A DNA stretch of 64,000 nucleotides, taken from Arthrobacter crystallopoietes. Lineage in GTDB: Bacteria > Actinomycetota > Actinomycetes > Actinomycetales > Micrococcaceae. The stretch spans positions 682,001-746,000 of the forward strand of contig NZ_CP072014.1 in NCBI RefSeq assembly GCF_017603825.1. The letters are read 5' to 3'. The position numbers and the translations under genes were made by a program. This document shows positions 43,923 through 61,230 of this stretch, one piece after another. Each line of letters opens with the position of its first letter. Position 1 is the stretch's first letter. The notes under the pieces are model-generated. The model saw only the letters and a list, made by a program, of their open reading frames with translations, did not search any database and was not told the DNA's origin.

Positions 43923-45131
43923 TTAGGCTGGAACAACTCTCACGGGAATGGACTCCCAGCCGCGGAGGGTGTTGTGCAGGTAGGGCACCGCGTCGCCGGC
44001 AGGTTCGATGGCCTTGACCCGCGTGGCGAGCGTGGTCAGCAGCACATCCATTTCCAGCCTGGACATCGGTTGTCCGACGCATTGATGGATTCCCATGCCG
44101 AACCCCAGATGGCCACCGGCTGGGCGTTCGATGTCATACTTGTCCGCATCGCCGCCCCATCGCCGCGGGTCTCGGTTGGCTGCGCCGACAAACACCGCGA
44201 GTTTTTCGTCTGCTGGGATTCGGATCCCGTGGAAATCAATGTCCCTGCTGGTGGTGCGGTAGAAGGACTGGAACGGCGATTCCAGCCGGAAGGCTTCGTC
44301 TATGGCGAACTTAGTCAGTCTGGGGTTCGCATGCACCTTTGACCATTCGCCGGGGTGTACGGAGAGTAGCTGCATGACGTTACCTATCGAGAAGATGGTG
44401 GTGTCCAGGCCTGCAGACAACATGGCCCGTACCAGGAGGGCGGCCTGATCGGAGCTGATCTCCCCTCTGTCCGCGCAGTCCCAGATTTGCTGGCCCAGAC
44501 TACCCTCTGCCAGTTTTTCGCGTGCGCAATTCGCCATCGCCCATTCGTTGGTGCCCTGGCCCATGCGGAAGTATTCCTTCGCCCGGTCATCGTGGGGGCC
44601 GAACGTGCTGAAGTTCATTGCACCCAAGGCCAGGAGATTTTCTGCACGGCCCTCGCGGGGAATGCCTACGGCGTCGCCGAACACCCGCAGCGGGAATACT
44701 TCAGCGAAGTCTTTCGCAGCATCGAAGTGCCGCAGGTCGAGTATGCGGTCGACAAGTTCGTCTGCGAATTGCTGGAACTGGCCTCGAAGTGAGCGCATGC
44801 CGCGCGGTGAGATGACACTTCCCATGGCTTGGCGCATGGTGGTGTGGATTGGCGGGTCGGACTCCATGATGCCCTGGGCACGCCAGGATTTCTCGTGATG
44901 CAGATTCTTGGGACCGGCGCCGGCGCTGGATATGAATGTGGAGTAGTCCTCGAGGATTTCCTTACATACATCAAAACGTGTAAAGGCAGGAACTCCGTAT
45001 CGCTCGAGCCAGACGGCCGGGCCTGCGTCGCGCATCCGGGTGAAAAGCGGGTACGGGTCTCTCAAATTGTCGTCAGAATAAGGATCTTCCGTGAAGACGG
45101 GGGCGGTTGCCGTGGACAAATCGAGTGCCAT
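43923..45131 (-). CDS. Cytochrome P450, CYP199-like
   Basis: The product has 402 residues. It has the I-helix LSAGLDTT, ExxR (DEAFRLESP), and the heme-binding GFGMGIHQCVG with the Cys ligand. Long segments (LLVRAMLSAGLDTT, GAANRDPRRW, NTLRGWESIPV) closely match my recollection of the CYP199A group. Those enzymes oxidise or O-demethylate para-substituted benzoates and cinnamates. The ATG at 45131 follows GAGG; an in-frame ATG 36 bases upstream is unlikely. It needs a ferredoxin and reductase; the product at 53299 is the nearest candidate. It is divergent from the IclR gene. Confidence 0.9.
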   Translation of the reverse strand: MALDLSTATAPVFTEDPYSDDNLRDPYPLFTRMRDAGPAVWLERYGVPAFTRFDVCKEILEDYSTFISSAGAGPKNLHHEKSWRAQGIMESDPPIHTTMRQAMGSVISPRGMRSLRGQFQQFADELVDRILDLRHFDAAKDFAEVFPLRVFGDAVGIPREGRAENLLALGAMNFSTFGPHDDRAKEYFRMGQGTNEWAMANCAREKLAEGSLGQQIWDCADRGEISSDQAALLVRAMLSAGLDTTIFSIGNVMQLLSVHPGEWSKVHANPRLTKFAIDEAFRLESPFQSFYRTTSRDIDFHGIRIPADEKLAVFVGAANRDPRRWGGDADKYDIERPAGGHLGFGMGIHQCVGQPMSRLEMDVLLTTLATRVKAIEPAGDAVPYLHNTLRGWESIPVRVVPA

Positions 45132-45300
45132 GAGTGCCTCACATGTCGATGGGGAGCTGGACTCCAAACAACGTAACGGCGCGGACTCACACGGCTAAAT
45201 TCCATTCTCGCAGTGCAAGAATGCGAATTGTCGTGATTCGAGATCTGATGGAGCATCGTAGTGTTGCATGGCTCACACGAGATAAGTCAGGAGGATGAAG

Positions 45301-46083
45301 GTGTCATCGTTTGAACGTGGTCTGAAGATTCTTGCTGAAATTGCAACCTGTGGGGACGCGACAGTTGATGCCGTTGCGACCCGTCTCGGCATCCCGCAAA
45401 GCACGACATACAGATATTTCAAGACCCTTAAGGAGCATGATTTCGTTCAAGAAGACGACGGACGCTACCGGCCGGGCCGTGCCCTGCTGGAAATGAGCGG
45501 CCGCAACCATTCACAATCGCTTCTGGCGGATATCGGCACCGCAGTCCTGAAGAGCATTGTTGACGAGGTGGGAGAAACCGCCGTCATGGTGATTCGGGTC
45601 GGGACCCAAGGTATGTGCCTTCGACGCGCGGAACCGGACAAGTCCCTGAAATACAGCTTTGCCGTGAACGAACTGCTCCCTTTGCATGCCGGTGCCGGCC
45701 AGCGCATCCTGCTTGCCTGGGCTCCGCCCGACGTCGTCCGGCAGGTCCTCGAGCGCGACCTGCCCCGCTTTACAGAGAACACCCTCACGGCTCAACAGAT
45801 CCAGGCCAGCCTGCCTCACGTGCGTTCAGCCGGCCGACTGGTTTCGCGGGGTGAGCTGGACGTTGGGTCGCTATCCCTTGCCGTGCCCGTGTTCAGCCGC
45901 GGCGAAATAGTCTGCTCATTGAATATTGCAGGACCGGAGACCCGGTGCGGTTCCAAGTCCTGGATAAGTTCGGCCTTCAACGTTATGGAGGAGGCGGCAC
46001 GGTGCCTCACTTCGTCGCTGGAATCCGCCACGAGTTTCCAATCAAGTAGGGAGATACTGAATGAACACAGGTACGCTGGCTGA
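45301..46083 (+). CDS. IclR-family transcriptional regulator
   Basis: The product has 260 residues with an N-terminal winged HTH (SFERGLKILAEI; VAATRLG-like VATRLGIPQSTTYRYFKTL) and an IclR ligand-binding domain (GTQGMCLRRAEPDKS, LPLHAGAGQRILLAW). The GTG at 45301 is preferred: AGGAGG ends six bases before it, while the ATG at 45295 touches the box. IclR regulators control aromatic and amino-acid catabolism by binding a pathway metabolite. Its position next to the P450 and lyase suggests it governs both. The end overlaps the lyase start by about 20 bases. Confidence 0.9.
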   Translation: MSSFERGLKILAEIATCGDATVDAVATRLGIPQSTTYRYFKTLKEHDFVQEDDGRYRPGRALLEMSGRNHSQSLLADIGTAVLKSIVDEVGETAVMVIRVGTQGMCLRRAEPDKSLKYSFAVNELLPLHAGAGQRILLAWAPPDVVRQVLERDLPRFTENTLTAQQIQASLPHVRSAGRLVSRGELDVGSLSLAVPVFSRGEIVCSLNIAGPETRCGSKSWISSAFNVMEEAARCLTSSLESATSFQSSREILNEHRYAG

Positions 46084-47758
46084 GACCCAGACCGTCCTCA
46101 TCGGCATGGATCCGTCCTCGGTGGAGGACTTGATCCAGGTAGCCCGGCACCGTCGTCCGGTCGCACTCGACCCTGCCGTCCTTGAACGCATGAAGCCGAG
46201 CCAGCAGTGGCTGGACGGAGTGGTCGACGGAATGCAGGCGGACACTGATACGCCGCCTATCTACAGCATCAACACCGGCTTCGGGTCGCTGGCCGGCCGC
46301 CAGGCCTTCGCCGACCCCTCGGATGCGGCCGAACTGTCACGCCGGCTCGTCCTTTCCAACGCCTCCGGTGTCGGCCGGTATGTCGACGAAGAAGTTGTGC
46401 GCGCAACCATGTTCATCCGCGTCGTCAGCCTGACACAGGGATACTCGGGTGTCCGCGGCAACATTGTCACGCTGCTGGTCGACATGCTCAACCACGGCGT
46501 CTATCCGGCCATCCCCGAATACGGATCCCTCGGAGCCTCAGGCGACCTGATCCCCCTGGCCCACATCGCCATCGTGATGACCCGTTCCCACATCGGCGAA
46601 GACGACGAGCTGGATTCCGGCGAAGCGTTCCTCGACGGCAAGATCGTCAGTGGAATAGCAGCCATGGCCAGCGCTGGCCTGGACCGGCTGCCACTGGGTG
46701 CGAAAGATGGTCTCGCACTGCTTAACGGGACTTCCTTCTCGTGTGCGCAAGCTGCATTGGCGCTCTTTGATGCGCAGAACCTCTTGGAGACAGCGCAGGT
46801 CACCGCGGCCATGACCATCGAGTCGCTCATGGGATTCGGTGATGCGTTCATCGCCGAACTGCACGAGGCCCGCGGCCAGAAAGGGCAGATCGCAGTGGCG
46901 GCCCGGCTGCGCGAACTTCTGGCGGGCAGCACGCTGGTCGATGGCAATGCTTCCACAGACCCGGTCCGCCAGCCACCTCAGGACGCGTATTCCCTACGTT
47001 GCATACCGCAGGTCTTTGGTCCCATCAAGGAAACCCTGGACTTTGCAGCCGGCATTATCAACAACGAAATTAACGCGGCCACCGACAATCCGTTGATCTT
47101 CCCTACGCTCCCGGACACCCGGAAGCTCAAGGCCGTCTCCGGCGGAAACTTCCACGCCGAGTACGTCGCCTTCGCCGCGGACTTCATTTCGATCGTCGTC
47201 ACCGAGATCGGCAACATCACGGAACGCCGCTTATTCCGTCTGGACGACGGCAGCCTGAACCGCGGATTACCTGACATGCTCGTGGCCAGCGAACAGGTCG
47301 GCATGGACTGCGGCTACATGCTCCCCCAGTATCTGGCTGCGGCGCTGGTTTCGGATTCGAAAACTCTCTCTCACCCGGACAGTGTGGACTCTATCCCTAC
47401 GTGCGCCAACCAGGAGGACCATGTCTCCATGGCTAATAACGCCGGTCGGCATGCCCGGCAGATAGTTGCCAACATCGAGACGGTAGTCGGCATCGAGCTG
47501 CTAATGGCGGCCCAGGCCATTGAACTGCGGCTGGGCCTGCCCGAAACCGCCGGGACTCCGGGGCCTGCCAGCGCCGCAACGGTCGACCTCCTCCGCAAAA
47601 GTGCATCGGCCGATGGGCGGAGGATCGATCACTTGCGCCGTGACGTGGTGATGTATCCGCGCGTTCGAAAGGCTGTGGAGCTAGTGCACAGCGGAGCCGT
47701 CGTGGATACCGCCAATACTGCCGTAGCCGGGACCTTTGAGCGGAATTCGCTCCAATAG
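46061..47758 (+). CDS. Aromatic amino acid/histidine ammonia-lyase family (MIO enzyme)
   Basis: The product has 565 residues. The MIO-forming triad Ala159-Ser160-Gly161 is in GSLGASGDLIPLAH. The catalytic Tyr68 is in IYSINTGFG, and the later EYVAFAADF and QEDHVSMANNAGRHA are family motifs. The pair that sets ring selectivity is Ser99-Asn100 (RLVLSNASGVG); HutH enzymes have Ser-His there, TAL His-Leu, PAL Phe-Leu. It would remove ammonia from an aromatic or imidazole-like L-amino acid. It overlaps the IclR gene and is followed by an amino-acid importer. True hutU/hutH remnants lie elsewhere, so this is probably not the ordinary histidine route. Confidence 0.87.
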   Translation: MNTGTLAETQTVLIGMDPSSVEDLIQVARHRRPVALDPAVLERMKPSQQWLDGVVDGMQADTDTPPIYSINTGFGSLAGRQAFADPSDAAELSRRLVLSNASGVGRYVDEEVVRATMFIRVVSLTQGYSGVRGNIVTLLVDMLNHGVYPAIPEYGSLGASGDLIPLAHIAIVMTRSHIGEDDELDSGEAFLDGKIVSGIAAMASAGLDRLPLGAKDGLALLNGTSFSCAQAALALFDAQNLLETAQVTAAMTIESLMGFGDAFIAELHEARGQKGQIAVAARLRELLAGSTLVDGNASTDPVRQPPQDAYSLRCIPQVFGPIKETLDFAAGIINNEINAATDNPLIFPTLPDTRKLKAVSGGNFHAEYVAFAADFISIVVTEIGNITERRLFRLDDGSLNRGLPDMLVASEQVGMDCGYMLPQYLAAALVSDSKTLSHPDSVDSIPTCANQEDHVSMANNAGRHARQIVANIETVVGIELLMAAQAIELRLGLPETAGTPGPASAATVDLLRKSASADGRRIDHLRRDVVMYPRVRKAVELVHSGAVVDTANTAVAGTFERNSLQ

Positions 47759-47823
47759 TTTTCCGAAATTATTACGGAAAAGGAATTGCGCGGTCCTCCA
47801 ATTCATATTAAGGCGTATCGCGA

Positions 47824-47848
47824 GGGCTTATGAACCTTTCATAAGCCC
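47824..47848 (+). terminator. Hairpin after the lyase gene
   Basis: A perfect 11-bp inverted repeat (GGGCTTATGAA at 47824-47834, TTCATAAGCCC at 47838-47848) with a 3-base loop is followed by TTCTTC. It is a good intrinsic terminator or a palindromic operator. The rest of the gap 47759-48108 is AT-rich and must contain the promoter of the importer operon. Confidence 0.6.
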
Positions 47849-48108
47849 TTCTTCTGCCGCATCACCATCAAAGAATAGTGGTTCCACCCTGTGACGTAGC
47901 GGAGGCATCCTCCCCCGCTAGCGCTACTTTGCGCCCGAAAATCGAACGACATGCGCCGAAGAACTAAGTTTTAATCACTAGCATCCTTTCCCTTGTGGAA
48001 TCACTATTTACTTTCTAGGCTGTTTCCCAGCTCGTTTGAAAAAGGTTTCTAACCAACACACAAAATAGCTTCATTGTCAGGCTTTAAACATAGCTAGGAG
48101 CAAAATAA

Positions 48109-49026
48109 ATGATCTCATCAGCTGTTTTTAAACGTACTTTTAGCGTCGCCGCGTTCGGATTGGCAACTTCCCTAGCATTGGCGGGTTGCTCAGGTTCAGC
48201 CGACGCCAACGCAGAATCCGAAAGCAGCGCCGCCGCAGCGGCCGGAGCGAAGGCACCCTTGTTCTCCGAGCTGCCTCAGTCCATCCAGGAAGCCGGCACA
48301 ATCAATGTCGCCAGCAATGTGGAGTATCCGCCGTTCGAATCCTTCGACACTGACGGAACCACGATCGTCGGCATTGATCGGGACATCGCTGACGAACTGG
48401 AGAAGCAGTTCGGAGTCACCCTGGAGTTCAACAACATTGCCTTCGACGCCATCATTCCCGGATTGGAATCCGGCCGCTACGACATGGCGATGTCGGCCAT
48501 GTCGGACACCGTGGAACGGCAGAAGAAGGTTGACTTCGTCGACTATTTCTCGGCTGGCGGAGGAATCATGACTGGTACGGCCAACGCGGAAACCATCAAG
48601 ACCTTGGACGACCTATGCGGCAAGGCTGTCGGAATTGTGAAGGGTACTACGGAGGATGCCGACGCCGCCGAGCAGTCGGCCAAATGCCAAGCCGCAGGCA
48701 AGGCTCCGCTGAAGGTAACGGTGTTCGCGGGCCAGAACCAGGCGGTCCTCGCGCTGCAGAGCGCAAGGACCGATGCGTTCCTGGTCGATTCGACATCAGG
48801 ATCCGTCATTGCAGCCGGTTCCAAGGGCCAGCTAGTACAGGGGCCGCGCTACCAGGATCTCGCTTTCGGCATCGTCTTCCCCAAGGAAAGCGACCAGTTG
48901 ACGGAGGCCGTGCAACTGGCCATGGCCGAGATCAAAGCGAACGGGGCGTATGACCGGATCCTGGCTGACTACGACATGGCCGACCATACCGTGGACGATT
49001 TCCCGATCAACGGAGTCACCGAATGA
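48109..49026 (+). CDS. Amino-acid ABC transporter substrate-binding lipoprotein
   Basis: The product has 305 residues, with a signal peptide and lipobox ALAGC (about 24-28). The family-3 binding-protein fold follows: TINVASNVEYPPFESFDTD, GIDRDIADELEK, LESGRYDMAMSAMSDT, and DAFLVDSTSG. It binds an amino acid outside the cell and delivers it to the permease. The ligand cannot be read; the cluster suggests the lyase substrate. Its stop overlaps the permease start by four bases. Confidence 0.92.
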   Translation: MISSAVFKRTFSVAAFGLATSLALAGCSGSADANAESESSAAAAAGAKAPLFSELPQSIQEAGTINVASNVEYPPFESFDTDGTTIVGIDRDIADELEKQFGVTLEFNNIAFDAIIPGLESGRYDMAMSAMSDTVERQKKVDFVDYFSAGGGIMTGTANAETIKTLDDLCGKAVGIVKGTTEDADAAEQSAKCQAAGKAPLKVTVFAGQNQAVLALQSARTDAFLVDSTSGSVIAAGSKGQLVQGPRYQDLAFGIVFPKESDQLTEAVQLAMAEIKANGAYDRILADYDMADHTVDDFPINGVTE

Positions 49027-49979
49027 ACCGGCCCACTGACGCCGGGCCCGCCGACGACCTGCCAATCCTTCCGGCCAGGTACACCGGACGGTGGGTAGCA
49101 GCCGGGGTGGTCCTGGTCGCCGTCGTTCTCTTGGTCTATGCGGCCTTCACGAACGAGCGCTTCCAGTGGAACGTCGTTGGTCAGTACCTCTTTGCCCCGC
49201 AGGTCCTGACAGGCTTAGGCAGGACACTGATGTTGACCGGCATAGCCATGGCCATCGGTGTGCTGCTTGGCATCCTCGTAGCCGTCTGCAGAATGTCCAG
49301 CAACCCCATCCTGTCCTACTCAGCGTGGGCCTATTCCTGGTTCTTCCGGGGCACTCCGCTGATGGTGCAGCTGCTCTTCTGGTTCTTCATGGCTGCGCTC
49401 GTTCCCACGATCGCCCTCGGCCTGCCGTTCGGACCAAGCTTTTTCGAAATTGAAACCAACGCCATCATCTCCCCGTTTACGGCAGCATTGCTGGGCCTGA
49501 GCCTGAATGAGGGCGCCTACATGGGCGAGATTGTCCGCTCCGGAATCAGGTCCATTCCGAAGGGCCAGACGGAGGCTGCCCAAGCCATCGGCATGTCGCG
49601 GGCACAAAACATGCGGCGTGTGGTCCTGCCCCAGGCGATGCGGGTGATCATCCCGCCAACAGGCAATGAAACGATCGGCATGCTCAAATACACGTCGCTG
49701 GTCATCGTCATCGGCTACGGGGAACTGCTGACGTCGGTTTCGATCATCTACTCGCGGACATTCGAGACGATCCCGTTGCTGATTGTCGCTGCCATCTGGT
49801 ACCTCGCCGTCACCGCGGTGTTGTCCATAGGCCAATATTTCGTCGAGCGGCACTTCGAACGAGGCTTCTCCCCCATCCGTCCTGCCAGGGAAGGGCGGAT
49901 TACAAGCCGCCCGGCTGGCGTGCACGTTTCCGCGCTGCCTGCCGCTGTCCCCGCCGTCGAACTGGAGAGACTCAAATGA
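49023..49979 (+). CDS. Amino-acid ABC transporter permease
   Basis: The product has 318 residues, five to six helices, and the HisMQ-type EAA loop ([22 protein letters not shown]). The N-terminus has a variable cytoplasmic part. It transports the amino acid with the ATPase and the lipoprotein. The ORF has a long C-terminal tail of about 40 residues ([14 protein letters not shown]) beyond the last helix. The ATGA overlap with the ATPase gene couples translation. Confidence 0.92.
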
Positions 49980-50743
49980 ACGATCCGATCGTCAGTGCCA
50001 GGCAAGTGCGCAAGTCCTTTGGCCACGTCGAGGTCCTCAAAGGCATCAACATGGATGTGAAGGCGGGTGAAGTCGCATGCCTACTCGGTCCCTCCGGCTC
50101 GGGCAAGAGTACCTTCCTGCGCTGCATCAACCATTTGGAAAAGATCGACGGCGGCCAGCTATGGGTGCAGGGTGAACCCATCGGCTACCGCCGGATCGGC
50201 AACCGGCTGCGCGAACTAAAGGAGCATGAAACCTCCCGCCAACGCGCTTCCGTGGGTATGGTCTTCCAGCAGTTCAACCTCTTCCCCCACCGCACCGCCT
50301 TGGAAAACGTCATTGAAGGCCCTACCGTGGTCCAACGGCGCCGCCGGGCAGCAGCCATCGAAGAAGGCATGGCCCTGTTGGAACGGGTCGGTCTGGCGGA
50401 CAAACGCAATCACTATCCGGGCCAGCTCTCCGGCGGGCAGCAGCAGCGGGTTGCGATTGCCCGGGCCCTCGCGCTCAAGCCCACCGTGATGCTTTTCGAC
50501 GAGCCGACGTCCGCCTTGGACCCGGAGCTCGTCGGGGAAGTACTGGACGTCATGGTCTCGCTGGCCGCATCCGGAATGACCATGATCGTCGTCACCCACG
50601 AAATGGGCTTCGCCAAAGAAGTCGGTGATGTTGTCCACTTCATGGCCGATGGCTGCCTCGTTGAAAGCGGCGATCCCCGGCAAGTGCTCGAAGACCCCAG
50701 GGAGGCCCGAACCCAGGCCTTCCTGTCCAAGGTGCTGGCATGA
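49976..50743 (+). CDS. Amino-acid ABC transporter ATP-binding protein
   Basis: The product has 255 residues. Walker A is [10 protein letters not shown]-loop [12 protein letters not shown], signature [16 protein letters not shown], Walker [16 protein letters not shown], and switch VVTHEMGF. Closest in kind to GlnQ/HisP/ArtP polar amino-acid ATPases. It is the last gene of the importer set; the hydroxyacid oxidase gene begins 62 bases later. Confidence 0.94.
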
Positions 50744-50805
50744 ACCCGGGAAAGGTGTAGAGCCATGATGGTCCTAACGCCTGGCTGCGCTGCGGCGGCT
50801 GCCGC

Positions 50806-52080
50806 ATGAAACTCACTCAAGCCCTAAGGCTGGTCTCGGTTAAGCTCCCCACAGGTTCGTCGGTTGAACGGGCGATGTCCCGGTGCCACACCGTCGAGGA
50901 CCTGCGGCAGCTGGCAGCGCGAAGACTGCCACTGCCGGTGATGGAGTACATCGACGGCGGAGCCGACGGCGAACTCAGCCTGGCCAACAATAGCGCGGCC
51001 TTCGAACGCCACCGCTTCATTCCCGTTGCACTAGCTGATGTCAGTACAACGGATACCAGCACCGGGTTCCTCGGTCGGCGCGCGGCCGCGCCGCTGGGCT
51101 TCGCACCCACCGGCTACACCCGAATGGTCAGGACCGAGGGCGAACCCGCAGTGGCCCGCGCCGCTGCTGCCGCGGGTCTGCCCTATGTGCTCTCCACGAT
51201 GGCTACCACCTCACTGGAGGAGCTGGCAACCGGGCCGACTGCCGAAGCGGAACGCTGGTTCCAGCTCTACGTCTGGAAAGACCGGGCCCGGGCCCACGAG
51301 CTTGTCCGCCGTGCGGCCGCGGCGGGTTATCGGGTTCTCGAAATAGCAGTGGATACCGCAGTTCCCGGCAACCGGCTGCGGGACATCCACAACGGATTCA
51401 CCATTCCGCCGCGGCTCACGCCGGCAAGCTTGCTGGAAATCGGGACCAAGCCCGGATACTGGATGCGGATGCTCCGCGCTCCCGCCTTGGAATTCGCCAA
51501 TGTCTCCGACAGCGCCGGAAGCAATGCTTTGACTATCGAGAACATCGGCTCACAGTTCGACCCGGGCGTGACGTGGAGCGATCTGGCGGAGCTGCGTGCG
51601 ATCTGGGACGGGGACCTGCTGTTAAAAGGCCCGATCAGTCCGGCCGATGCCGTCCTTGCACGCGACCTCGGAGTTGACGGAGTGCATCTGTCCAACCACG
51701 GCGGCCGTCAATTGGACCGCACCATTGCCCCCGCCGATCTGATCAACCCGGTTCGCCGGGCCGTCGGCGACGACTTCGCCATCGTCGTTGATTCAGGTAT
51801 CCGGCACGGTGCAGACATTGCCACCGCGATCGCTCTGGGTGCAGACCTGGCCATGATCGGCCGCCCGTATCTGTGGGCGCTGGCAGCCGCCGGTGAACCC
51901 GGCGTCGCGTACTTGGCTGACCTCCTTGTTGGCCAATTCCGCCGCACCATGCAACTGCTCGGAGTCGCCAGCGTCGATGAGCTGCGACGCCGAGGCATGC
52001 AGCTTCTCGATGAAGAGCCCGTGCTTCCCCGGCCCCATACACCCGGAGAAATCCCCGGATTGCTCCTGCCCCAAGCATGA
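50806..52080 (+). CDS. FMN-dependent 2-hydroxyacid oxidase/dehydrogenase
   Basis: The product has 424 residues. The TIM-barrel family signature SNHGGRQLD carries the catalytic His and Arg; [20 protein letters not shown] (Lys binding FMN) and [19 protein letters not shown] complete the FMN site. Lactate, glycolate and mandelate oxidases belong here, so it oxidises a 2-hydroxy acid to a 2-oxo acid. The N-terminus is about 20 residues longer than needed; the ATG at 50875 is an alternative start. With the neighbouring aminotransferase it could interconvert a 2-hydroxy, 2-oxo and amino acid. Confidence 0.88.
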
Positions 52081-52097
52081 CAGCGGAAGGAAACGAC

Positions 52098-53258
52098 ATG
52101 AGCACGAATACGGCCAGCCCCCTGCCGCCGCTGGAACCGCCTGCCCCTCGGGGCACCAACCGCGGTACAACCGGCCCGTCACCACGGCCAGGAATTGCCA
52201 TGCTGCCTGGATACTCTCGTTCAGCGGGTAAGGCGAGTGTCCGCTGGATTGCCTCATCCAACGAACTGCCGGTTCCACCGTCGCGTGCGGTCCAGGATGC
52301 GGTCGCGGCGGCTGCTGCCGACGCCAACCGCTACCCCAGTCTCGCAGGTGACAATCTCGTGGCGGCCGTGGCCGGGAGACTAGGACTTGAGCCCGGCCAG
52401 GTGGTCGCAGGAGCCGGATCGCTTGCCCTGCTCCAACTGCTGCTCACCACCTACACTGGCAGCGGTGATGAAGTCATCTACGCCTGGCGCAGCTATGAAG
52501 CGTACCCGATACTCGTCGGAGTCACCGGCGCTGCAGCCGTTGAAGTACCCCTCACCAGCGCTACCCGGCACGATCTGAACTCAATGGCCGCCGCTATAAC
52601 AACAGCCACCCGGGCCGTGATCGTCTGCTCGCCGAACAATCCAACAGGAACAACCATCGACCACGAAGAGTTGATGGACTTCCTTAACCGGGTACCAGCG
52701 CAGGTGCTGGTGATCCTGGACGAGGCATACCGGGAATTCTCCTTAACCGAACACGACAGCACACACCTCTTGAAGAAATATGCCAACCTGGCTGTCCTGC
52801 GGACCTTTTCCAAGGCATACGGCTTAGCCGGACTCCGGGCAGGGTATTTGGCAGCCAGCCAGGATATAGCGGCGAACTTGCGGCGCGCCGCCCCACCTTT
52901 CCCGCTCAGCCGGGTGGCTGAAGCAGCCGCTATTGCCGCTTGGAACGAACCCGACGCGACCGCACAGACCATCTCGCGCATCGTGGACGAGCGCCGCTAT
53001 CTAAGTGCACAGCTGCGCAGCCGGGGTATCGAGGTGCCGGAAAGCGGAGGGAACTTCGTGTGGATCCCCGCCGGCGACCGCGCCCTGGAACTGGAGGCCG
53101 CCTGCCTGGCCCAGTCCGTTTCGGTCAGAGCATTCGACCGCGAAGGAGTACGCATCACTCTGGGCGAACACGGCGCAACAACGGCAGTACTGGCCGCAGT
53201 TGATTCCATGGGCGCGGCTGTCCATACAACCAGCGGCACCCTTTGCACGCTGACTTAA
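52098..53258 (+). CDS. Class I/II aminotransferase (HisC/Pat-like)
   Basis: The product has 386 residues. The PLP-binding Lys is in TFSKAYGLAGLRAGY, with IVCSPNNPTGT and the Asp/Tyr in VLDEAYREF-like ILDEAYREFS. The group includes histidinol-phosphate and aromatic aminotransferases. The ATG at 52098 has GGAAGGA just upstream and is preferred over the overlapping ATG at 52077. In this pathway it should move an amino group between an aromatic amino acid and its 2-oxo acid. The reductase follows 40 bases later. Confidence 0.88.
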   Translation: MSTNTASPLPPLEPPAPRGTNRGTTGPSPRPGIAMLPGYSRSAGKASVRWIASSNELPVPPSRAVQDAVAAAAADANRYPSLAGDNLVAAVAGRLGLEPGQVVAGAGSLALLQLLLTTYTGSGDEVIYAWRSYEAYPILVGVTGAAAVEVPLTSATRHDLNSMAAAITTATRAVIVCSPNNPTGTTIDHEELMDFLNRVPAQVLVILDEAYREFSLTEHDSTHLLKKYANLAVLRTFSKAYGLAGLRAGYLAASQDIAANLRRAAPPFPLSRVAEAAAIAAWNEPDATAQTISRIVDERRYLSAQLRSRGIEVPESGGNFVWIPAGDRALELEAACLAQSVSVRAFDREGVRITLGEHGATTAVLAAVDSMGAAVHTTSGTLCTLT

Positions 53259-53298
53259 ACACCGGCATCCGCCTGCTAATTTGTCTGAGGAGAACGAC

Positions 53299-54264
53299 TT
53301 GAAAACCCCGTTGAACAGCGAATTTTTCGATGTAGAAGTCACCGAGACCGAACCTGCGTCCGATTCCATACTGGCGCTGCGGCTTGAACACCCTCGCGGT
53401 GAGGCGCTGCCCTCATGGGAGGCTGGCGCCCATGTGGACGTCATGCTGCCCAACGGCCTGCTGCGCCAATACTCGCTCTGTTCCCGGCCAGAGGATAGCT
53501 TTTGGCGTCTCGGCGTACTGCGGGAGCCGCAGGGACGCGGCGGATCCGCCTGGATACACGACGAACTGCGACCCGGTACCAAATTGCAGGTGCGCGGTCC
53601 CCGGAACAACTTCAGTCTGGACGCTGCACCACGGTATCTCTTTATTGCCGGCGGAATCGGTATCACCCCAATCCTGCCCATGATCCGGCAAGCCGAGGCG
53701 GCAGGCGCGGACTGGAAACTCATCTACCTGGGCAGGAGCCGTACGTCCATGGCGTTCCTGGAGGAACTTGTTGTTTACCACGACCGTGTCCACATCCACA
53801 CGGACGATGTGTCCGGGCTTTTTCCGCTTGAACCGCTCCTCGATGGGCTGGACGCGTCCACCCATGTCTACGCCTGTGGGCCGGGACCGCTGCTGAATGC
53901 CCTCGAGAAACTGACCGGGGACTGGCCAGGACCTAACCGCTACCATTCCGAGCGGTTCGTCTCCCGCCCGGCTACCGACTCCGACTGCAAGACATTGGAC
54001 ACGGAGTTCAGCGTAGAAACGGCAGACGGCACAGAGATCCTGGTCCCCCCAGGCACTTCAGTTTTGGAAGCGCTGCTGGAAAGTGGCATACCCGTTCTTA
54101 ATTCATGCCGCGAAGGCATCTGCGGCACTTGCGAAACCCCGGTGATCTCCGGGGAGATCGACCACCGGGACAGTCTACTGTCAGGGGAAGAACGCCAGGC
54201 GGGGGACACCATGATGATCTGTGTCTCGCGCTGCTTCGGCAAGCGCCTGGTACTAGACATTTAG
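53299..54264 (+). CDS. Phthalate-dioxygenase-reductase-type electron transfer protein
   Basis: The product has 321 residues and a TTG start at 53299 after GAGGAGAA. Domain order is FMN-binding (RQYSLCSRPE), NADH-binding (FIAGGIGITPILPM, ACGPGPLL), and a C-terminal plant-type [2Fe-2S] ferredoxin (SCREGICGTCE, and a later Cys in ICVSR). It passes electrons from NADH to an oxygenase. The P450 at 43923 is the only oxygenase nearby. P450s usually use a separate ferredoxin, so this pairing is an inference. Confidence 0.9.
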   Translation: MKTPLNSEFFDVEVTETEPASDSILALRLEHPRGEALPSWEAGAHVDVMLPNGLLRQYSLCSRPEDSFWRLGVLREPQGRGGSAWIHDELRPGTKLQVRGPRNNFSLDAAPRYLFIAGGIGITPILPMIRQAEAAGADWKLIYLGRSRTSMAFLEELVVYHDRVHIHTDDVSGLFPLEPLLDGLDASTHVYACGPGPLLNALEKLTGDWPGPNRYHSERFVSRPATDSDCKTLDTEFSVETADGTEILVPPGTSVLEALLESGIPVLNSCREGICGTCETPVISGEIDHRDSLLSGEERQAGDTMMICVSRCFGKRLVLDI

Positions 54265-55017: not shown

Positions 55018-56226
55018 TCAGGCGTGCGTTGTTACAACGGCTTGGGCCGAGCGGGCGTGGCGAAGTTCGGTGAGATGGTCAGTGAGCTGTTGGTTCCTTG
55101 CGACATCGGCCACCGTGAGGGCTAGGGCCTTGGCACCGTCGATCATGGCGGTGTCTCCGGTCTGTGAAACAGCGGCTTGGGCAAACTCGATGGTGTGCGG
55201 CACGGCGTCGCAGTTAGCAAAGGTGATACACGGGTGGATGGCGGGTAGGAACTGGGAGATGTTCCCCATGTCCGTGGATCCGCTGCCCATGCCGCCGGTT
55301 GTTTCCAAGGTGTAGCCGAGCTGCTCAATGTTGTTGTCCCAGTAGGCGGCGATATCGTCGTGCTGACGCATCGGGGCGTAAGGAATCTCGGTCTGCTCAA
55401 TCACAACCTGGCAACCGGTTGCGATGGCAGCGCCTTCCAGACAGGACCGGACACGGGCGCTGGCGTCCAGCCAGTCATCTTCGTCGAAGGCCCGTATTTC
55501 GACCTGCAGGTTCGTTTTACCGGGAATGATATTCGTAGCCGCACCCCCGCTGACGACGAACGAGGCGACCACCACAGTGGGCTTGAGCTGCTGGCGCAAC
55601 AGACCGAGCGCAACCTGTGCCAACGTCGCTGCATCGCCCGCGTTGACTCCTTCGTGGGGTGCCGCCGCTGCGTGGGCAGTGCGACCGGTGAAGGTCACGG
55701 CCAGATGCTCATAAGCCTGCGTACGGAAAGATGCACAGGGCGTCTGCGCTCCGGTAGCGCCGTGCACCATGAGGGAGAAATCGGTGTCGTCCCAAGCTCC
55801 TCGCTCGAGCATAAGGATCTTACCGCCGCCCTTTTCTTCTGCCGGAGTGCCGAGGAGCTTAATGCGCAGATTAAGTTCCTCGGCTACCGGTTTGAGGGCC
55901 AGAACCGCGCCCACCGCAGCTCCGGCAATTACATTATGGCCGCAGGCATGGCCGATCCCGGGCAGCGCGTCGTACTCGGCAAGCACCGCCACAGTGCAAT
56001 CACCGTTGCCATATACCGCTTCGACGGCAGTGGGGAGCCCGTAGGCGCTCCGTGTGACGTCAAAGCCGTTGTTCTCCAAAACGTCGGCTATCTCGGCTGC
56101 GGCATGGAACTCCTCGAACGCGAGTTCTGGGCGGTTACCGATGCTCTTGCTCAGCTCGATCAATAAGTGGCTGCATGTCTCTACTGTTCGGATGATGGTT
56201 GCACGGATGTTCTGGTTTGCGTTCAT
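55018..56226 (-). CDS. M20-family amidohydrolase (AbgB-like)
   Basis: The product has 402 residues. ALPGIGHACGHNVIAGAAVG carries two metal-binding His residues, and LLGTPAEEKGGGK the Glu ligand and catalytic Glu. A lid domain covers about 180-290, with VTFTGRTAHAAAAPHEGVNA. Members cut an amide from N-acyl amino acids or p-aminobenzoyl-glutamate. The neighbour is an MFS transporter 39 bases upstream in the same direction. Together they would take up and hydrolyse an N-acyl conjugate. The substrate is unknown. Confidence 0.9.
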   Translation of the reverse strand: MNANQNIRATIIRTVETCSHLLIELSKSIGNRPELAFEEFHAAAEIADVLENNGFDVTRSAYGLPTAVEAVYGNGDCTVAVLAEYDALPGIGHACGHNVIAGAAVGAVLALKPVAEELNLRIKLLGTPAEEKGGGKILMLERGAWDDTDFSLMVHGATGAQTPCASFRTQAYEHLAVTFTGRTAHAAAAPHEGVNAGDAATLAQVALGLLRQQLKPTVVVASFVVSGGAATNIIPGKTNLQVEIRAFDEDDWLDASARVRSCLEGAAIATGCQVVIEQTEIPYAPMRQHDDIAAYWDNNIEQLGYTLETTGGMGSGSTDMGNISQFLPAIHPCITFANCDAVPHTIEFAQAAVSQTGDTAMIDGAKALALTVADVARNQQLTDHLTELRHARSAQAVVTTHA

Positions 56227-56265
56227 GTGGTTCTCCTCAATTCGTGTCTGGTACGTGGATGTTCT

Positions 56266-57738
56266 CTACCGCCGCGCAGCCGCCTCCTCGACGAGCTCAA
56301 ATTCTGCCTCGGCATGCACCGCCGCCGGGGGCCGTGAGATGAAAACGGCACAGACGGCGCCAGCGACATTCAGTGCGGCAAAGACCATCCAGATGATCTG
56401 AAAGGCCTGCATCGAAGGTGCTGTGTTCCCTGAAGACGTACCGGCAGAAGTGACCAGCAGGGTGGTAGATGCGACAAATGCACCGGCGAGGGAACCACCG
56501 ATGGTGCGGGCGGTGTTGTAGACCCCCGACGCTGAGGCTGGCGCCGCAACCGGCGCCCGCTCGATGACCACACCGGGCAGTACCCCCAACACCACACCCA
56601 TACCTATTCCACCGATTGCCAGCCAGAGCGTAAACAGCAGAACCGAGGAAGGCACAAACGCCATGCAGACCAACGCGGCGGCGGAAAGCAAGCAGGCAAG
56701 GACAAGAGCCCGGCTGCGTCCCAGCACCTTTGCAAGGAGGAAAGATGAGAAGGAACCAAGAGTAAGACTTCCGGCTGATACAGCGAGAACAATGCCCACA
56801 CCTGTAGTAGAAAGTCCGGCACCGTAACCCGTTACTGCGGGGTTTGCGCTTAGGAACAACACGGGCGGAGACTGGTTGCCGAACATCGTGACCGCTACCA
56901 GGAAGCCAATAAATATTGGGTTTCCCAGATGAGAGGAGCGGATCGCCGGAAGGTCCACAAGTGGGGATGGTGCCCGGCGTTCCACGCGTAGGAACAGCAC
57001 GAGCGCGAGAATCCCGACCACCAGGGGGATGAGCGCATGCTCAGACAGCCAGCCGCGCTGAGGCGCTTCGGACAGGCCATACATCACACCCACGAGCCCG
57101 GCACCGAGCAGCGCAGCACCTTTCCAGTCGATCATCCTGCTGGCGTCGGGCCGGCCTTCGGGCACGAGCACTCGCACAAGCGGCACGAACAACGCGATGC
57201 CCAACGCGGGAATCAACTGCACCCAGAGAAGCGACCCGATCACGTCCATCGCGACCCCGCCCAACACGCTTCCGGCGGCAACCCCGAACGTAAGCGCACC
57301 TACCATCAATCCGATGTCCTTGTTGGCCGACTTCTGACGGTGCGCTTTCAACAGTGCCATTGCCAGTGGCAGAAACGCAGCCACAGGGCCTTGGACTGCG
57401 GCGCCGAGCAGAACGAACGCAAATGCCGGTGCGAAGGCGACGAGCAATGATCCTGCAGCGGCAAGAGCCACGGAAACGACCAGGAGCCGCTGTTGCCCGA
57501 ACCGGTCCCCCAGCATCGCGATAAGCGGAACGGAAACCGCCGATGACAGCAGGCCCACGGCAAGGACCCAACTGGTGGCCCCGCCGGGCACTTGGAAGAC
57601 GCGCCCGATCTCGCCCAGCAGCGGCACAATCCAGCCCTGTACAAGACCTGAGAAGAACTCCAGTGCAACAAGGACCGGTACGAACAATCGAATGCTTGCG
57701 GCCGTCGTCGTGGACGCCCGCCCCCTGGTCGAACTCAT
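56266..57738 (-). CDS. MFS transporter of the EmrB/QacA (14-helix) type
   Basis: The product has 490 residues and about fourteen helices. GDRFGQQRLLVVSVAL is the motif between TM2 and TM3; the C-terminal half has the extra helix pair of the DHA2 group. It may export a product or import the M20 substrate. The ATG at 57738 follows GGAG; an upstream in-frame start adds 26 residues. It is divergent from the Lrp gene, which probably controls it. Confidence 0.88.
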   Translation of the reverse strand: MSSTRGRASTTTAASIRLFVPVLVALEFFSGLVQGWIVPLLGEIGRVFQVPGGATSWVLAVGLLSSAVSVPLIAMLGDRFGQQRLLVVSVALAAAGSLLVAFAPAFAFVLLGAAVQGPVAAFLPLAMALLKAHRQKSANKDIGLMVGALTFGVAAGSVLGGVAMDVIGSLLWVQLIPALGIALFVPLVRVLVPEGRPDASRMIDWKGAALLGAGLVGVMYGLSEAPQRGWLSEHALIPLVVGILALVLFLRVERRAPSPLVDLPAIRSSHLGNPIFIGFLVAVTMFGNQSPPVLFLSANPAVTGYGAGLSTTGVGIVLAVSAGSLTLGSFSSFLLAKVLGRSRALVLACLLSAAALVCMAFVPSSVLLFTLWLAIGGIGMGVVLGVLPGVVIERAPVAAPASASGVYNTARTIGGSLAGAFVASTTLLVTSAGTSSGNTAPSMQAFQIIWMVFAALNVAGAVCAVFISRPPAAVHAEAEFELVEEAAARR

Positions 57739-57850
57739 AATTCTCTGCTCCTCACACCACACCACCCCTTGGCGGTGATCCAGATTACAGTGACATAAGG
57801 ATTGGCGACCGCGCACAATATGATGAAACTCTTTTGATTTGAGGGGCTTG

Positions 57851-58855
57851 ATGAAGAATTCTCATCCTGACGAGACGGATTTGAAGATTATTAATGCTCT
57901 CCAAATCGAACCAAGGCTGCCGTGGACGTCTTTGGCCAAGGTGATCGGCGTCGATTCGGTGACACTTTCCCGGCGTTGGGACCGCATCTCCGCCGACGGC
58001 GCGGCATGGATCACAGCCATGGCAACCGGGCATTATCGCAGCATCGCGCTCGTGGAGGTGCAGTGCCACCCCGGACAGGTACTCACCACTGCCAAACAGG
58101 CAAGCCTGGATCCAGCTATCCATTCTATTGATCTCACAAGTGGACTCCGGGACATGGTCATTACGCTGTCCACCCGGGACGATGAAGAATTGGCCGACTA
58201 CATCCTCGTCCGGCTGGGAAAGCTGCCCGGCGTCCGGGCGATCCGCACCTACATCGTCAATTCTCCGTTCAAGCTGGGACACCAGTGGACGTTGCGCGCC
58301 TTGACCCATGAGGAGGCCGAACGCATTCCGCGGTACCGTCCGCCGAGGACCGCCGCAGCAAAGATCGTTCCACCGCAGCTCGTAGCCCCGATCGTCAGCG
58401 CGCTCGAAAAGAATGCCCGCGCTACCAACGCCGAGCTATCCGGAATACTTGGCATCAGCCCCCAGCGGGTGAGCGACTCCATTGCCACGATGAGGATGCA
58501 GGGGGTGCTGGAACTCAGGGTGGACATTGCCCAGACGCACTCGAACTGGCCGGTTGTCACCTGGTACTTCCTGCAGGTCCCAAGCTCAACCTTGACCACC
58601 GCAAACAAAGCTCTGCTCAGCATGAACGAGGTACAGTTCGCGGGAGTCGCAACAGGCCAATACAACCTCATTGTGGCGCTAAGCTCACGCAGCAGGTCGG
58701 ACACGCTGGGACAGGAAACGGAGCTCGAGCGGCGACTGCCCGGCGCCCGGATTGTGGATAGGTCCATGGTGATCCGGGTATATAAGCATCTGGGGCACCT
58801 GCTCAACTCCTCGGGCCGCGCTACTGGAGAAATCATTAGCCTGAGCCGCCCCTGA
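57851..58855 (+). CDS. Tandem Lrp/AsnC-family regulator
   Basis: The product has 334 residues, about twice the usual 150 for Lrp. Two HTH-plus-effector halves follow each other: DLKIINALQIEPRLPWTSLA and ALEKNARATNAELSGILGIS, each followed by a RAM/ACT-like part. The first start (57839) is four codons upstream; the ATG at 57851 has GAGGGG before it. It probably responds to an amino-acid-like ligand and regulates the divergent MFS/M20 genes. Confidence 0.87.
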   Translation: MKNSHPDETDLKIINALQIEPRLPWTSLAKVIGVDSVTLSRRWDRISADGAAWITAMATGHYRSIALVEVQCHPGQVLTTAKQASLDPAIHSIDLTSGLRDMVITLSTRDDEELADYILVRLGKLPGVRAIRTYIVNSPFKLGHQWTLRALTHEEAERIPRYRPPRTAAAKIVPPQLVAPIVSALEKNARATNAELSGILGISPQRVSDSIATMRMQGVLELRVDIAQTHSNWPVVTWYFLQVPSSTLTTANKALLSMNEVQFAGVATGQYNLIVALSSRSRSDTLGQETELERRLPGARIVDRSMVIRVYKHLGHLLNSSGRATGEIISLSRP

Positions 58856-59689: not shown

Positions 59690-60814
59690 TTATTTTCCTT
59701 CGTTCATCGGGATCCGGACGCCACGCTCGGCAGCTACGTCGACGGCACGCTCGTAGCCGGCGTCGGCATGACGGATCACTCCCACGCCCGGATCGTTGGT
59801 GAGCAGGGCGGTGAGCTTGGCCGCTGCGAGCTCAGTGCCGTCGGCCACGGAGACCTGGCCGACATGGATGGAGCGGCCGATACCGACGCCGCCGCCGTGG
59901 TGGATGGAGACCCAGGTGGCGCCGGAGGAAGCAGCGGTCAGCGCGTTCAGCAGCGGCCAGTCGGCAATCGCGTCGGAACCGTCCGCCATGGATTCGGTCT
60001 CACGGTACGGAGAGGCCACGGAACCGGAATCCAGGTGGTCACGGCCGATCACGATCGGCGCCGAAACCTTGCCCTCGGCCACAAGCCGGTTGAACAACAG
60101 CCCGGCCTTCTGGCGCTCGCCGTAGCCCAGCCAGCAGATACGCGCCGGCAGGCCCTCGAACTCGACGTGCTCCTGCGCGGCGTCGATCCAGCGGTGCAGA
60201 TGTTCGTTCTCGGGGAAGATCTCCTTGATCGCCTCGTCCGTAACGCGGATGTCCTCCGGATCACCGGACAGCGCAACCCAGCGGAACGGACCCAAGCCCT
60301 CGCAAAAGAGCGGACGGATGTAGGCGGGGACGAAGCCGGGGAACTCGAACGCGCGGTCGTAGCCGCCCAGGCGCGCCTCGTCGCGGATGGAGTTGCCATA
60401 GTCGAACACCTCGGCGCCGGCGTCCTGGAACTCCACCATCGCCTGCACATGGCGGGCCATGGAGACCTAGGCCTTCTTGGTGAAGACCACCGGATCCGCT
60501 TCAGCCTCGGCATGCCAGTCCTCGACAGCGATGCCTTCGGGCAGGTAGCTCAACGGGTCGTGGGCGGAGGTCTGGTCCGTGACCACGTCCACGGCCAGCT
60601 CGCCGGCCTTGTGCCGGCGCAGGATCTCGGGGAAGACTTCGGCGGCATTGCCGACGAAGCCAACGGACAGTGCGCGCTTGTCGGCCTTGGCAGCCAGCAC
60701 CTTTGCGATAGCGGCGTCGAGGTCGGTCTCAACCGCATCCAGCTAGCGCTTGGAAGCGCGGCGGCGCAGGCGCGTCTCGTCGACGTCGACAATCAGGCAC
60801 GCGCCGCCGTTCAG
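59690..60814 (-). pseudogene. hutU: Urocanate hydratase, truncated and with two amber codons
   Basis: One reading frame from LNGGACLIVDVDETRL to the stop at 59690 covers the last 374 codons of HutU (full length about 550). It includes [45 protein letters not shown] and [20 protein letters not shown] codons interrupt it at 60743-60745 (in ASKR-stop-LDAV, normally a Tyr) and 60467-60469 (in FTKKA-stop-VSMARH). No frameshift is present. The first third is missing; the upstream side joins an unrelated 80-bp stretch and the acyltransferase fragment. HutU hydrates urocanate in histidine breakdown. Confidence 0.85.
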
Positions 60815-60895
60815 CCGACGTCGCGCTCGTTCGAGGCCGACACCACCGCCCCCTGGTGCGTCCGGAATCGCCGGCAACACGCGGGAGGTGGACTT

Positions 60896-61230
60896 ACTCG
60901 ACGCCGATGCTGAACACCATCACGCCGTCCAGCTACAACGGGTTCGGCGTAATGCTGGCGGCGCTGTGCATCTTCACGTCCGTGTTCCACCTGCTCAAAG
61001 ACTGGCACCCGCGCCACGGCTGGCACAGTTCATCTTGGCAATGTCGAGCGCCGCCTTCGGCGCCTTCCTGAGCCACTACCTGATCCTGACCTGGCTCACC
61101 TTCAAGGTCCTCGGCGAAGACGTGCAACCGACGCTGGCCACCATGACCTTCAAGTTCACGGTGGCCACCGCCGGCGCCTTCATCCTCTCCTACTCAGCTA
61201 AGAATCCCCTGGCTGCGCAGGATTTTCGAA
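60896..61230 (+). pseudogene. Broken second copy of the acyltransferase 3' end (right direct repeat)
   Basis: The stretch repeats 42850-43187 in the same orientation, with about nine of ten bases equal by eye. Translation gives TPSSYNGFGVMLAALCIFTS in one frame and LAQFILAMSSAAFGAFLSHY in another, so one base is lost near 61005. It has no start, and the end (PLAAQDFRN) diverges. It marks the right border of the accessory region and adjoins the MFS gene. Confidence 0.85.

Follow-up and report, generated by a model that had tools for sequence, protein, structure and literature searches.

When actin and myosin turn over, N-tau-methylhistidine is left as an end-product. Mammals excrete most of it unaltered, so microbes must complete its breakdown. 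Bacterial N-tau-methylhistidine degradation is reportedly the subject, by its title, of a 2022 study by Beliaeva, Atac and Seebeck (ACS Chem Biol 17:1989). According to the part of the source consulted, cytochrome P450 enzymes of the CYP199A type demethylate para-methoxybenzoates, PbdA using a cognate reductase, and CYP199A4 also N-demethylates para-substituted benzoates, but at rates that are significantly lower (PMC11530827). Here we analyzed a stretch of 64,000 nucleotides from Arthrobacter crystallopoietes (positions 682,001-746,000 of a single-contig genome of 4.38 Mb; the whole stretch is called the window), in which a CYP199-type P450 gene lies together with a gene for a histidine ammonia-lyase (HAL)-like enzyme. 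From comparison of sequences, we consider it probable that this unit degrades a ring-substituted histidine, most likely N-tau-methylhistidine, through the lyase and then through N-demethylation by the P450 to urocanate.

The first-pass annotation had placed nine genes at 43,923-54,264 and proposed that they could form one pathway, with import of an amino acid, its deamination to an acrylate and oxidation of the ring or side chain. By open reading frames (ORFs) and Pfam/NCBIfam models, all nine genes were present at those coordinates, complete and intact. The view of one catabolic unit was retained, with the imported compound probably an amino acid (or a hydroxy or keto acid). The genes are as follows.

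43923..45167, minus strand: CYP199-type cytochrome P450 (PF00067; 366 bits to structure 9g9q, PbdA)
45295..46083, plus strand: IclR-family regulator, divergent from the P450 gene (PF01614, PF09339)
46061..47758, plus strand: HAL-like MIO ammonia-lyase, proposed N-tau-methylhistidine ammonia-lyase (PF00221, 530 bits)
48109..49026, plus strand: polar amino-acid ATP-binding cassette (ABC) importer, lipoprotein substrate-binding protein (PF00497 (SBP_bac_3), 108 bits; lipobox LAGC by eye)
49023..49979, plus strand: polar amino-acid ABC importer, permease (PF00528; TIGR01726, 69 bits, cutoff 42.2)
49976..50743, plus strand: polar amino-acid ABC importer, ATPase (PF00005; GlnQ/EhuA-like, under those equivalog cutoffs)
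50806..52080, plus strand: FMN-dependent 2-hydroxyacid oxidase/dehydrogenase, proposed to convert methylimidazole-lactate to methylimidazole-pyruvate (PF01070 (FMN_dh), 403 bits)
52077..53258, plus strand: HisC-like aminotransferase, proposed to convert the keto acid to the amino acid (PRK03321, 384 bits, cutoff 374)
53281..54264, plus strand: phthalate dioxygenase reductase (PDR)-type reductase, proposed electron donor of the P450 (PF00970, PF00175 and PF00111 in this order)

The lyase had been annotated as an MIO ammonia-lyase, a label that held and was refined to HAL-like. It scored 535.6 bits on the HAL subfamily model PRK09367, above the cutoff of 524, and failed the hutH equivalog TIGR01225 (514.5 bits, cutoff 539.15). 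Models of tyrosine ammonia-lyase (TAL) and phenylalanine ammonia-lyase (PAL) were not passed (245-296 bits against cutoffs of 519-1000), nor were those of aminomutases (160-335 bits against 501-1250). The pair of residues that sets selectivity is His-Leu in TAL and Phe-Leu in PAL; the window lyase has Ser-Asn there. For residue comparison, 30 canonical HAL rows, namely 29 relatives and the gene of the same genome, were aligned with 43 rows from the clusters. The latter include the window, and two of them (L019 and L056 in our numbering of loci) come from one genome. The MIO triad of the window lyase is Ala-Ser-Gly, and its first Ala was found in all 43 cluster rows. Asn100 occupies the position of His83 in Pseudomonas HAL, where Asn was found in 42 of the 43 cluster rows (Asp in L035) and His in 30/30 canonical rows. 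At the 93% level, the two sets differed in 19 further columns, of which four are gapped in canonical HALs. In Geobacillus HAL, activity on histidine was abolished by H82L and by E411D, as stated in the accessible part of that report (PMC11432326). A tree separated the cluster lyases from 12 canonical HALs by a branch with support 100/99. The lyase is a HAL paralogue, not an aromatic-type enzyme.

Related lyases were found at 43 loci, of which the distant L043 (41%) and L045 (39%) were excluded from counts; the others shared about 61-97% identity with the lyase of the window, and their hosts were Actinomycetota and Pseudomonadota, the latter mainly Alphaproteobacteria. The clade is rare. Among 197 genomes from the same family as the window, 14 (own included) had a lyase match of at least 68%, and two more had a 42% match only; at E<=1e-170, the clade was found in 2/394 genomes of its class, own included. 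In other samplings at this threshold, the lyase was found in 1/347, 5/342 and 2/343 genomes, counting genomes already known.

In the related loci, the lyase gene lies beside either the P450 and reductase genes or a dedicated urocanase set. The locus table held 52 rows (42 first-scan loci and 10 fetched regions), with the P450 in 26, a urocanase in 20 and neither in 6. The window and three loci fetched later (L188, L197 and L198) were added, and copies (L130, L136, L137, L139, L197 and L199) were removed, as was the outgroup L043 because its urocanase falls with the canonical ones. On this basis, 25 distinct loci were P450-type (window included), 20 were urocanase-type, none had both, and five were cut by contig ends with neither branch visible (L023, L026, L035, L039 and L041). 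The sixth row with neither, L018, has its urocanase set at a distance, as described below. The near-identical L030 and L036 were counted separately, and the urocanase-type L044 was seen only in part. On each side, flanks of at most about 10 kb were covered. The loci share ancestry, so the counts are not of independent events. A reductase homologue accompanied the P450 in 25 of the 26 P450 rows, the exception (L011) stopping at a contig end. HutI and HutF accompanied the urocanase where the contig permitted; in L017, the locus tested, HutU, HutI, HutF and HutC each scored above equivalog cutoffs.

The alternation was also seen at the level of genomes. A whole-genome search at E<=1e-90, which recovered 5/5 P450-type genomes as a control, detected no CYP199-like P450 in 12 of 13 urocanase-type genomes. 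The P450 of the thirteenth (L024), 90% identical to that of L186 and only 50% to that of the window, is of another CYP199 group. The three loci fetched later agreed: a Streptomyces megaplasmid (L188) carries the HutU set and no P450, and both a second Streptomyces locus (L198) and L197, a near-copy of L015, carry the P450 pair and no HutU. Both branch types were present within Micrococcaceae and within Streptomyces. The best lyase tree contained four changes of the P450 label, of which strongly supported branches force just one. Because of these changes and the presence of both types in the two groups, the branches were probably exchanged more than once.

Canonical hut genes co-occurred with the clusters. 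Each of 33 genomes checked had two or more HAL-family genes and one or more urocanases, and a canonical-type urocanase was placed in all 33 (30 by tree; L003, L010 and L019 by BLAST). Urocanase-type genomes had two urocanase matches in 11 of 13 cases and three in the other two, and P450-type genomes had a single match in 17/20; in L003, L014 and L016, the second urocanase was canonical-type, and in L003 both copies are partial and lie close to the ends of contigs. These copy numbers are as expected if the P450 branch passes urocanate to the ordinary pathway and the other branch needs its own urocanase. The genome of the window encodes hutH elsewhere and one hutU at C1:2719026. No dedicated urocanase was found beside the window lyase; related loci have one in 20 of 50 distinct loci. 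The 12 full-length cluster urocanases formed one clade with support 100/100. They showed 54 fixed differences from 32 canonical-type rows, of which seven make up an added C-terminal tail and others lie in the HHGGG loop.

The annotated CYP199-like P450 was confirmed by its closest solved relatives. Its first 18 matches among solved structures scored 327-366 bits and included 9g9q, CYP199A4 (337 bits) and variants; the next after the CYP199 group, CYP267B1, scored 153 bits. Among cluster P450s (27 rows, copies included), Arg84 of PbdA was retained in 26, and Arg236 and both Phe173 and Phe176 in all. The phthalate-type reductase of the annotation likewise proved right, its flavin, NAD and C-terminal 2Fe-2S domains following in the order of PDR. 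In idealized planar geometry, the N-tau methyl of the urocanate lies 7.1-7.5 Å from the carboxyl carbon, a distance between those of the demethylated positions in 4-methoxybenzoate (6.4 Å) and 4-methoxycinnamate (8.6-8.8 Å).

In three Nocardioidaceae loci (L015, L016 and L022), the reductase gene is immediately followed by genes for an S-(hydroxymethyl)mycothiol dehydrogenase and a hydrolase of the MBL fold. The L015 dehydrogenase scored 644 bits on TIGR03451 (cutoff 512.9), and the L016 and L022 copies are 92-96% identical to it. We take the two genes to be an actinobacterial pair for formaldehyde disposal, and they lend independent support to demethylation.

The unit is predicted to work as follows. 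The ABC importer would take up a ring-substituted histidine, likeliest N-tau-methylhistidine, the corresponding 2-hydroxy acid, or both. Conversion of the hydroxy or keto acid to the amino acid would fall to the FMN oxidase (in relatives, a GlcD-like 2-hydroxyacid dehydrogenase) and the HisC-like aminotransferase. The HAL-like lyase would then remove ammonia to give N-tau-methylurocanate, and the P450 with its reductase would remove the methyl as formaldehyde to give urocanate, which could enter the ordinary hutU pathway encoded elsewhere on the chromosome. Relatives without the P450 would instead leave the methyl in place through their dedicated urocanase and HutI, and HutF would free it as methylamine. 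Chemistry predicts that the N-tau methyl leaves as methylamine at HutF, and its retention until that step fits the dedicated copies of HutU, HutI and HutF in the urocanase branch. The sequences themselves show the gene content, the alternation of the two branches, the canonical-type hut genes alongside and the divergence of lyase and urocanase. We infer the exact substituent, the order of steps, the demethylation and the release of formaldehyde or methylamine from sequence; the lyase is placed before the P450 because the lyase is conserved and the P450 family favors aryl acids. As to whether a hydrolytic route (HutU/HutI/HutF) and an oxidative route (CYP199-lineage P450 and reductase) exchangeably process one substituted urocanate, we find the case evenly balanced.

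Several observations weigh against this reading. The carboxylate triad of PbdA (Arg84/Ser87/Ser237) is not complete in the cluster P450s, in which two of its three positions are changed, Ser87 to Gly and Ser237 to Ala, in 27/27 rows. The Ala and the change of Val288 to Phe were common to all 23 other CYP199-like P450s compared, and the Gly to 11 of them. These three residues were therefore dropped as cluster-specific marks, and the pocket residues point to a planar carboxylate in general, not to methylurocanate. The formaldehyde dehydrogenase gene adjoins only 3 of the 25 P450-type loci, all in Nocardioidaceae. No such dehydrogenase/hydrolase pair was found in the search of other P450-type and urocanase-type loci, and no formaldehyde dehydrogenase gene was among the annotated neighbors of the window unit; one TIGR03451 gene above cutoff lies elsewhere in the same genome. 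Another group of CYP199-like P450s, described below, occurs near hutH without the clade lyase, and thus this type of P450 may have other roles. Asp at the Glu414 position of the lyase, present in 42/43 cluster rows, was also present in 6/30 canonical HAL rows and was dropped as a cluster mark, which leaves the Asn at the His83 position alone as distinctive. The urocanase tree gave a long-branch warning, and in L018 the clade-type HutU, HutI and HutF (89%, 82% and 78% identical to those of L017) lie about 27 kb upstream of the lyase rather than beside it, so parts of the set can sit farther off than the flanks examined. Finally, the sequences do not fix the substituent, since the same facts would suit a different distal group, whether at C2 or at N-tau.

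The second CYP199-like P450 of the genome lies at C1:2708977-2710158 (L178:8977-10149, minus strand), is 60% identical to that of the window and is located about 5 kb from canonical hutH. This position suggests a link to hut, but its next neighbors are threonine dehydrogenase and glycine C-acetyltransferase genes. P450s of this group were likewise near canonical hutH in five genomes of the same genus (L180-L184). They were 57-61% identical to the window's P450, had no clade lyase beside them and were placed in the best tree among the cluster P450s, not firmly. A third CYP199-like P450 (50%), at C1:1319400-1320611 (L186:9409-10611), adjoins a PDR-type reductase homologue (46%) and is perhaps a benzoate-type demethylase.

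The alternative that survives best, although we consider it unlikely, is another ring-substituted histidine, such as 2-thio- or S-methyl-histidine, N-pi-methylhistidine derived from anserine, or one with a larger N-alkyl group; the logic of the pathway would be unchanged, but the P450 would remove or oxidize another group. The specialized lyase and urocanase standing beside canonical ones fix only a substituted imidazole. For the S-methyl-thio variant, four cluster urocanases scored 620-676 bits on the S-methyl-thiourocanate hydratase model NF058531, below its cutoff of 880 and no better than two canonical urocanases (694-696 bits), and we rejected that identity on this score; the four were also under the cutoff for thiourocanate hydratase (NF058530). 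The methyl of N-pi-methylurocanate lies 4.4-5.3 Å from the carboxyl carbon in the same geometry, nearer than known CYP199 demethylation sites, and the formaldehyde dehydrogenase genes of the three loci favor a methyl over other substituents. Salvage of unmodified imidazole-lactate or imidazole-pyruvate into histidine and urocanate, with an unrelated job for the P450, seems very doubtful to us. The hydroxyacid oxidase, the HisC-like aminotransferase and the HAL-like lyase would suffice for it, but in all 33 genomes checked a canonical-type urocanase and one more HAL-family gene are present, the His of the His83 position is lost from the lyase, and P450 and diverged urocanase branch alternate. 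Catabolism of tyrosine, O-methyltyrosine or cinnamate, the aromatic option of the first-pass annotation, would fit the para-methoxybenzoate demethylation reported for CYP199 enzymes in the portion of the source available (PMC11530827) but is extremely improbable and was rejected on neighbors and lyase type, because clade lyases share loci with the diverged urocanase (19 distinct loci, and L018 at about 27 kb) and with HutI and HutF, the lyase is nearest to HAL with neither the TAL nor the PAL selectivity pair, and none of the nine genes encodes a ring-cleavage enzyme or a CoA-ligase. Of the substrate classes named in that annotation, the imidazole amino acid was kept.

The extent of the unit was examined by nucleotide comparison. 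Window positions 43,944-54,264 aligned in one block of 90.8% identity with a 21.7 kb locus of Arthrobacter sp. SF27 (L003), the nearest named relative for the cluster, whose lyase is 97% identical; no further alignment to the window was found in the rest of that locus. Since the homology stops there, the end of the unit is the boundary drawn in the first-pass annotation. The G+C content was 0.59-0.64 across 42-54 kb of the window against 0.66-0.70 across 8-36 kb, and the whole unit may have been transferred between genomes as one piece. Similar clusters were present in dozens of genomes, and much of the gene set was found again at other loci; the grouping is not due to chance. Rfam gave no matches at the gathering threshold in 40000-64000, and a promoter and terminator scan gave no more sites than shuffled sequences.

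Some details concern single genes. The P450 start was listed as TTG, and by eye an ATG at 45131 is likelier. The IclR regulator scored 114.5 bits, under the cutoff, on the PcaR/PcaU subfamily model. For the annotated importer, the label was corrected to a single permease gene. Relatives of the FMN oxidase were found in 11 of 42 loci, some merely 38-44% identical, and a GlcD-like FAD dehydrogenase in 16/42, with L007 and some others carrying an FMN oxidase as well.

Other genes were noticed around the unit and its relatives. Just downstream, at 55018-58855 and outside the part shared with SF27, are genes for an M20 amidohydrolase, a major facilitator superfamily transporter and an Lrp/AsnC-type regulator. 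At 59705-60853 on the minus strand lies a decayed canonical-type urocanase with internal stops, which matches HutU of the same genome at 87% identity across residues 166-547 and is antisense to the mechanical ORF 59768-60913. It is followed in another frame by a truncated HutH N-terminus, seen by eye and not among the tblastn matches. Seven Pseudomonadota urocanase-type loci (L025, L028, L029, L030, L032, L036 and L040) carry a TRAP transporter, annotated as DctP/DctQ/DctM in L030 and recognized by similarity in the other six; no window-type ABC substrate-binding protein or permease was found in their flanks. Six actinobacterial urocanase-type loci (L019, L024, L034, L131, L132 and L133) carry an M20 hydrolase, by its annotation in L024 of the carbamoylase/allantoate type, which perhaps serves the N-formylglutamate step.

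If the unit does degrade N-tau-methylhistidine by demethylation, the genes of the pathway would thereby be named and a sequence marker gained for the methylhistidine-degradation trait, the lyase clade marking degraders of animal muscle methylhistidine. An N-methylimidazole acrylate would then have a P450 that acts on it naturally, and the reach of CYP199 demethylases would extend from lignin-type methoxy acids to N-methylated imidazole. The replacement of a three-enzyme branch by a single oxygenase pair would also serve as a natural experiment.

Among the open-licence papers listed in literature searches, none was, judged by title and opening of the abstract, on this gene set or on a P450 acting on methylurocanate, which is weak evidence of novelty because the search covered open-licence papers only. 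Compared with the canonical Hut pathway (HutH, HutU, HutI, HutF/HutG), the unit has the MIO lyase family in common and, as proposed, would share its end through urocanate. Unlike that pathway, its lyase is a paralogue with Asn at the His83 position, in a genome with hutH and hutU elsewhere, and it adds an importer, a hydroxyacid oxidase, an aminotransferase, a P450 and a reductase. The N-tau-methylhistidine degradation of Beliaeva et al. (2022), compared by title only, presumably concerns the same substrate class; assuming a dedicated urocanase there, the window differs in having a P450 and reductase that replace urocanase, HutI and HutF. The urocanase-type relatives, with the lyase, diverged urocanase, HutI and HutF, look like a copy of the Hut pathway that tolerates the methyl group. 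The S-methyl-thiourocanate and thiourocanate hydratases (NF058531 and NF058530) are, as in the clusters, specialized urocanase paralogues for substituted urocanates, unlike which the tested cluster urocanases fell below both cutoffs. With the para-methoxybenzoate O-demethylases PbdA/PbdB of Rhodococcus jostii RHA1 and CYP199A4, the unit shares the CYP199-type P450, and with PbdA also the cognate flavin/iron-sulfur reductase, both carboxylate-side arginines and the Phe pocket. It differs from PbdA in Gly, Ala and Phe for Ser87, Ser237 and Val288, and in the proposed N- instead of O-demethylation, on an imidazole acrylate. We treat the kind of pathway as known and the P450 branch as a candidate for a new version of it.

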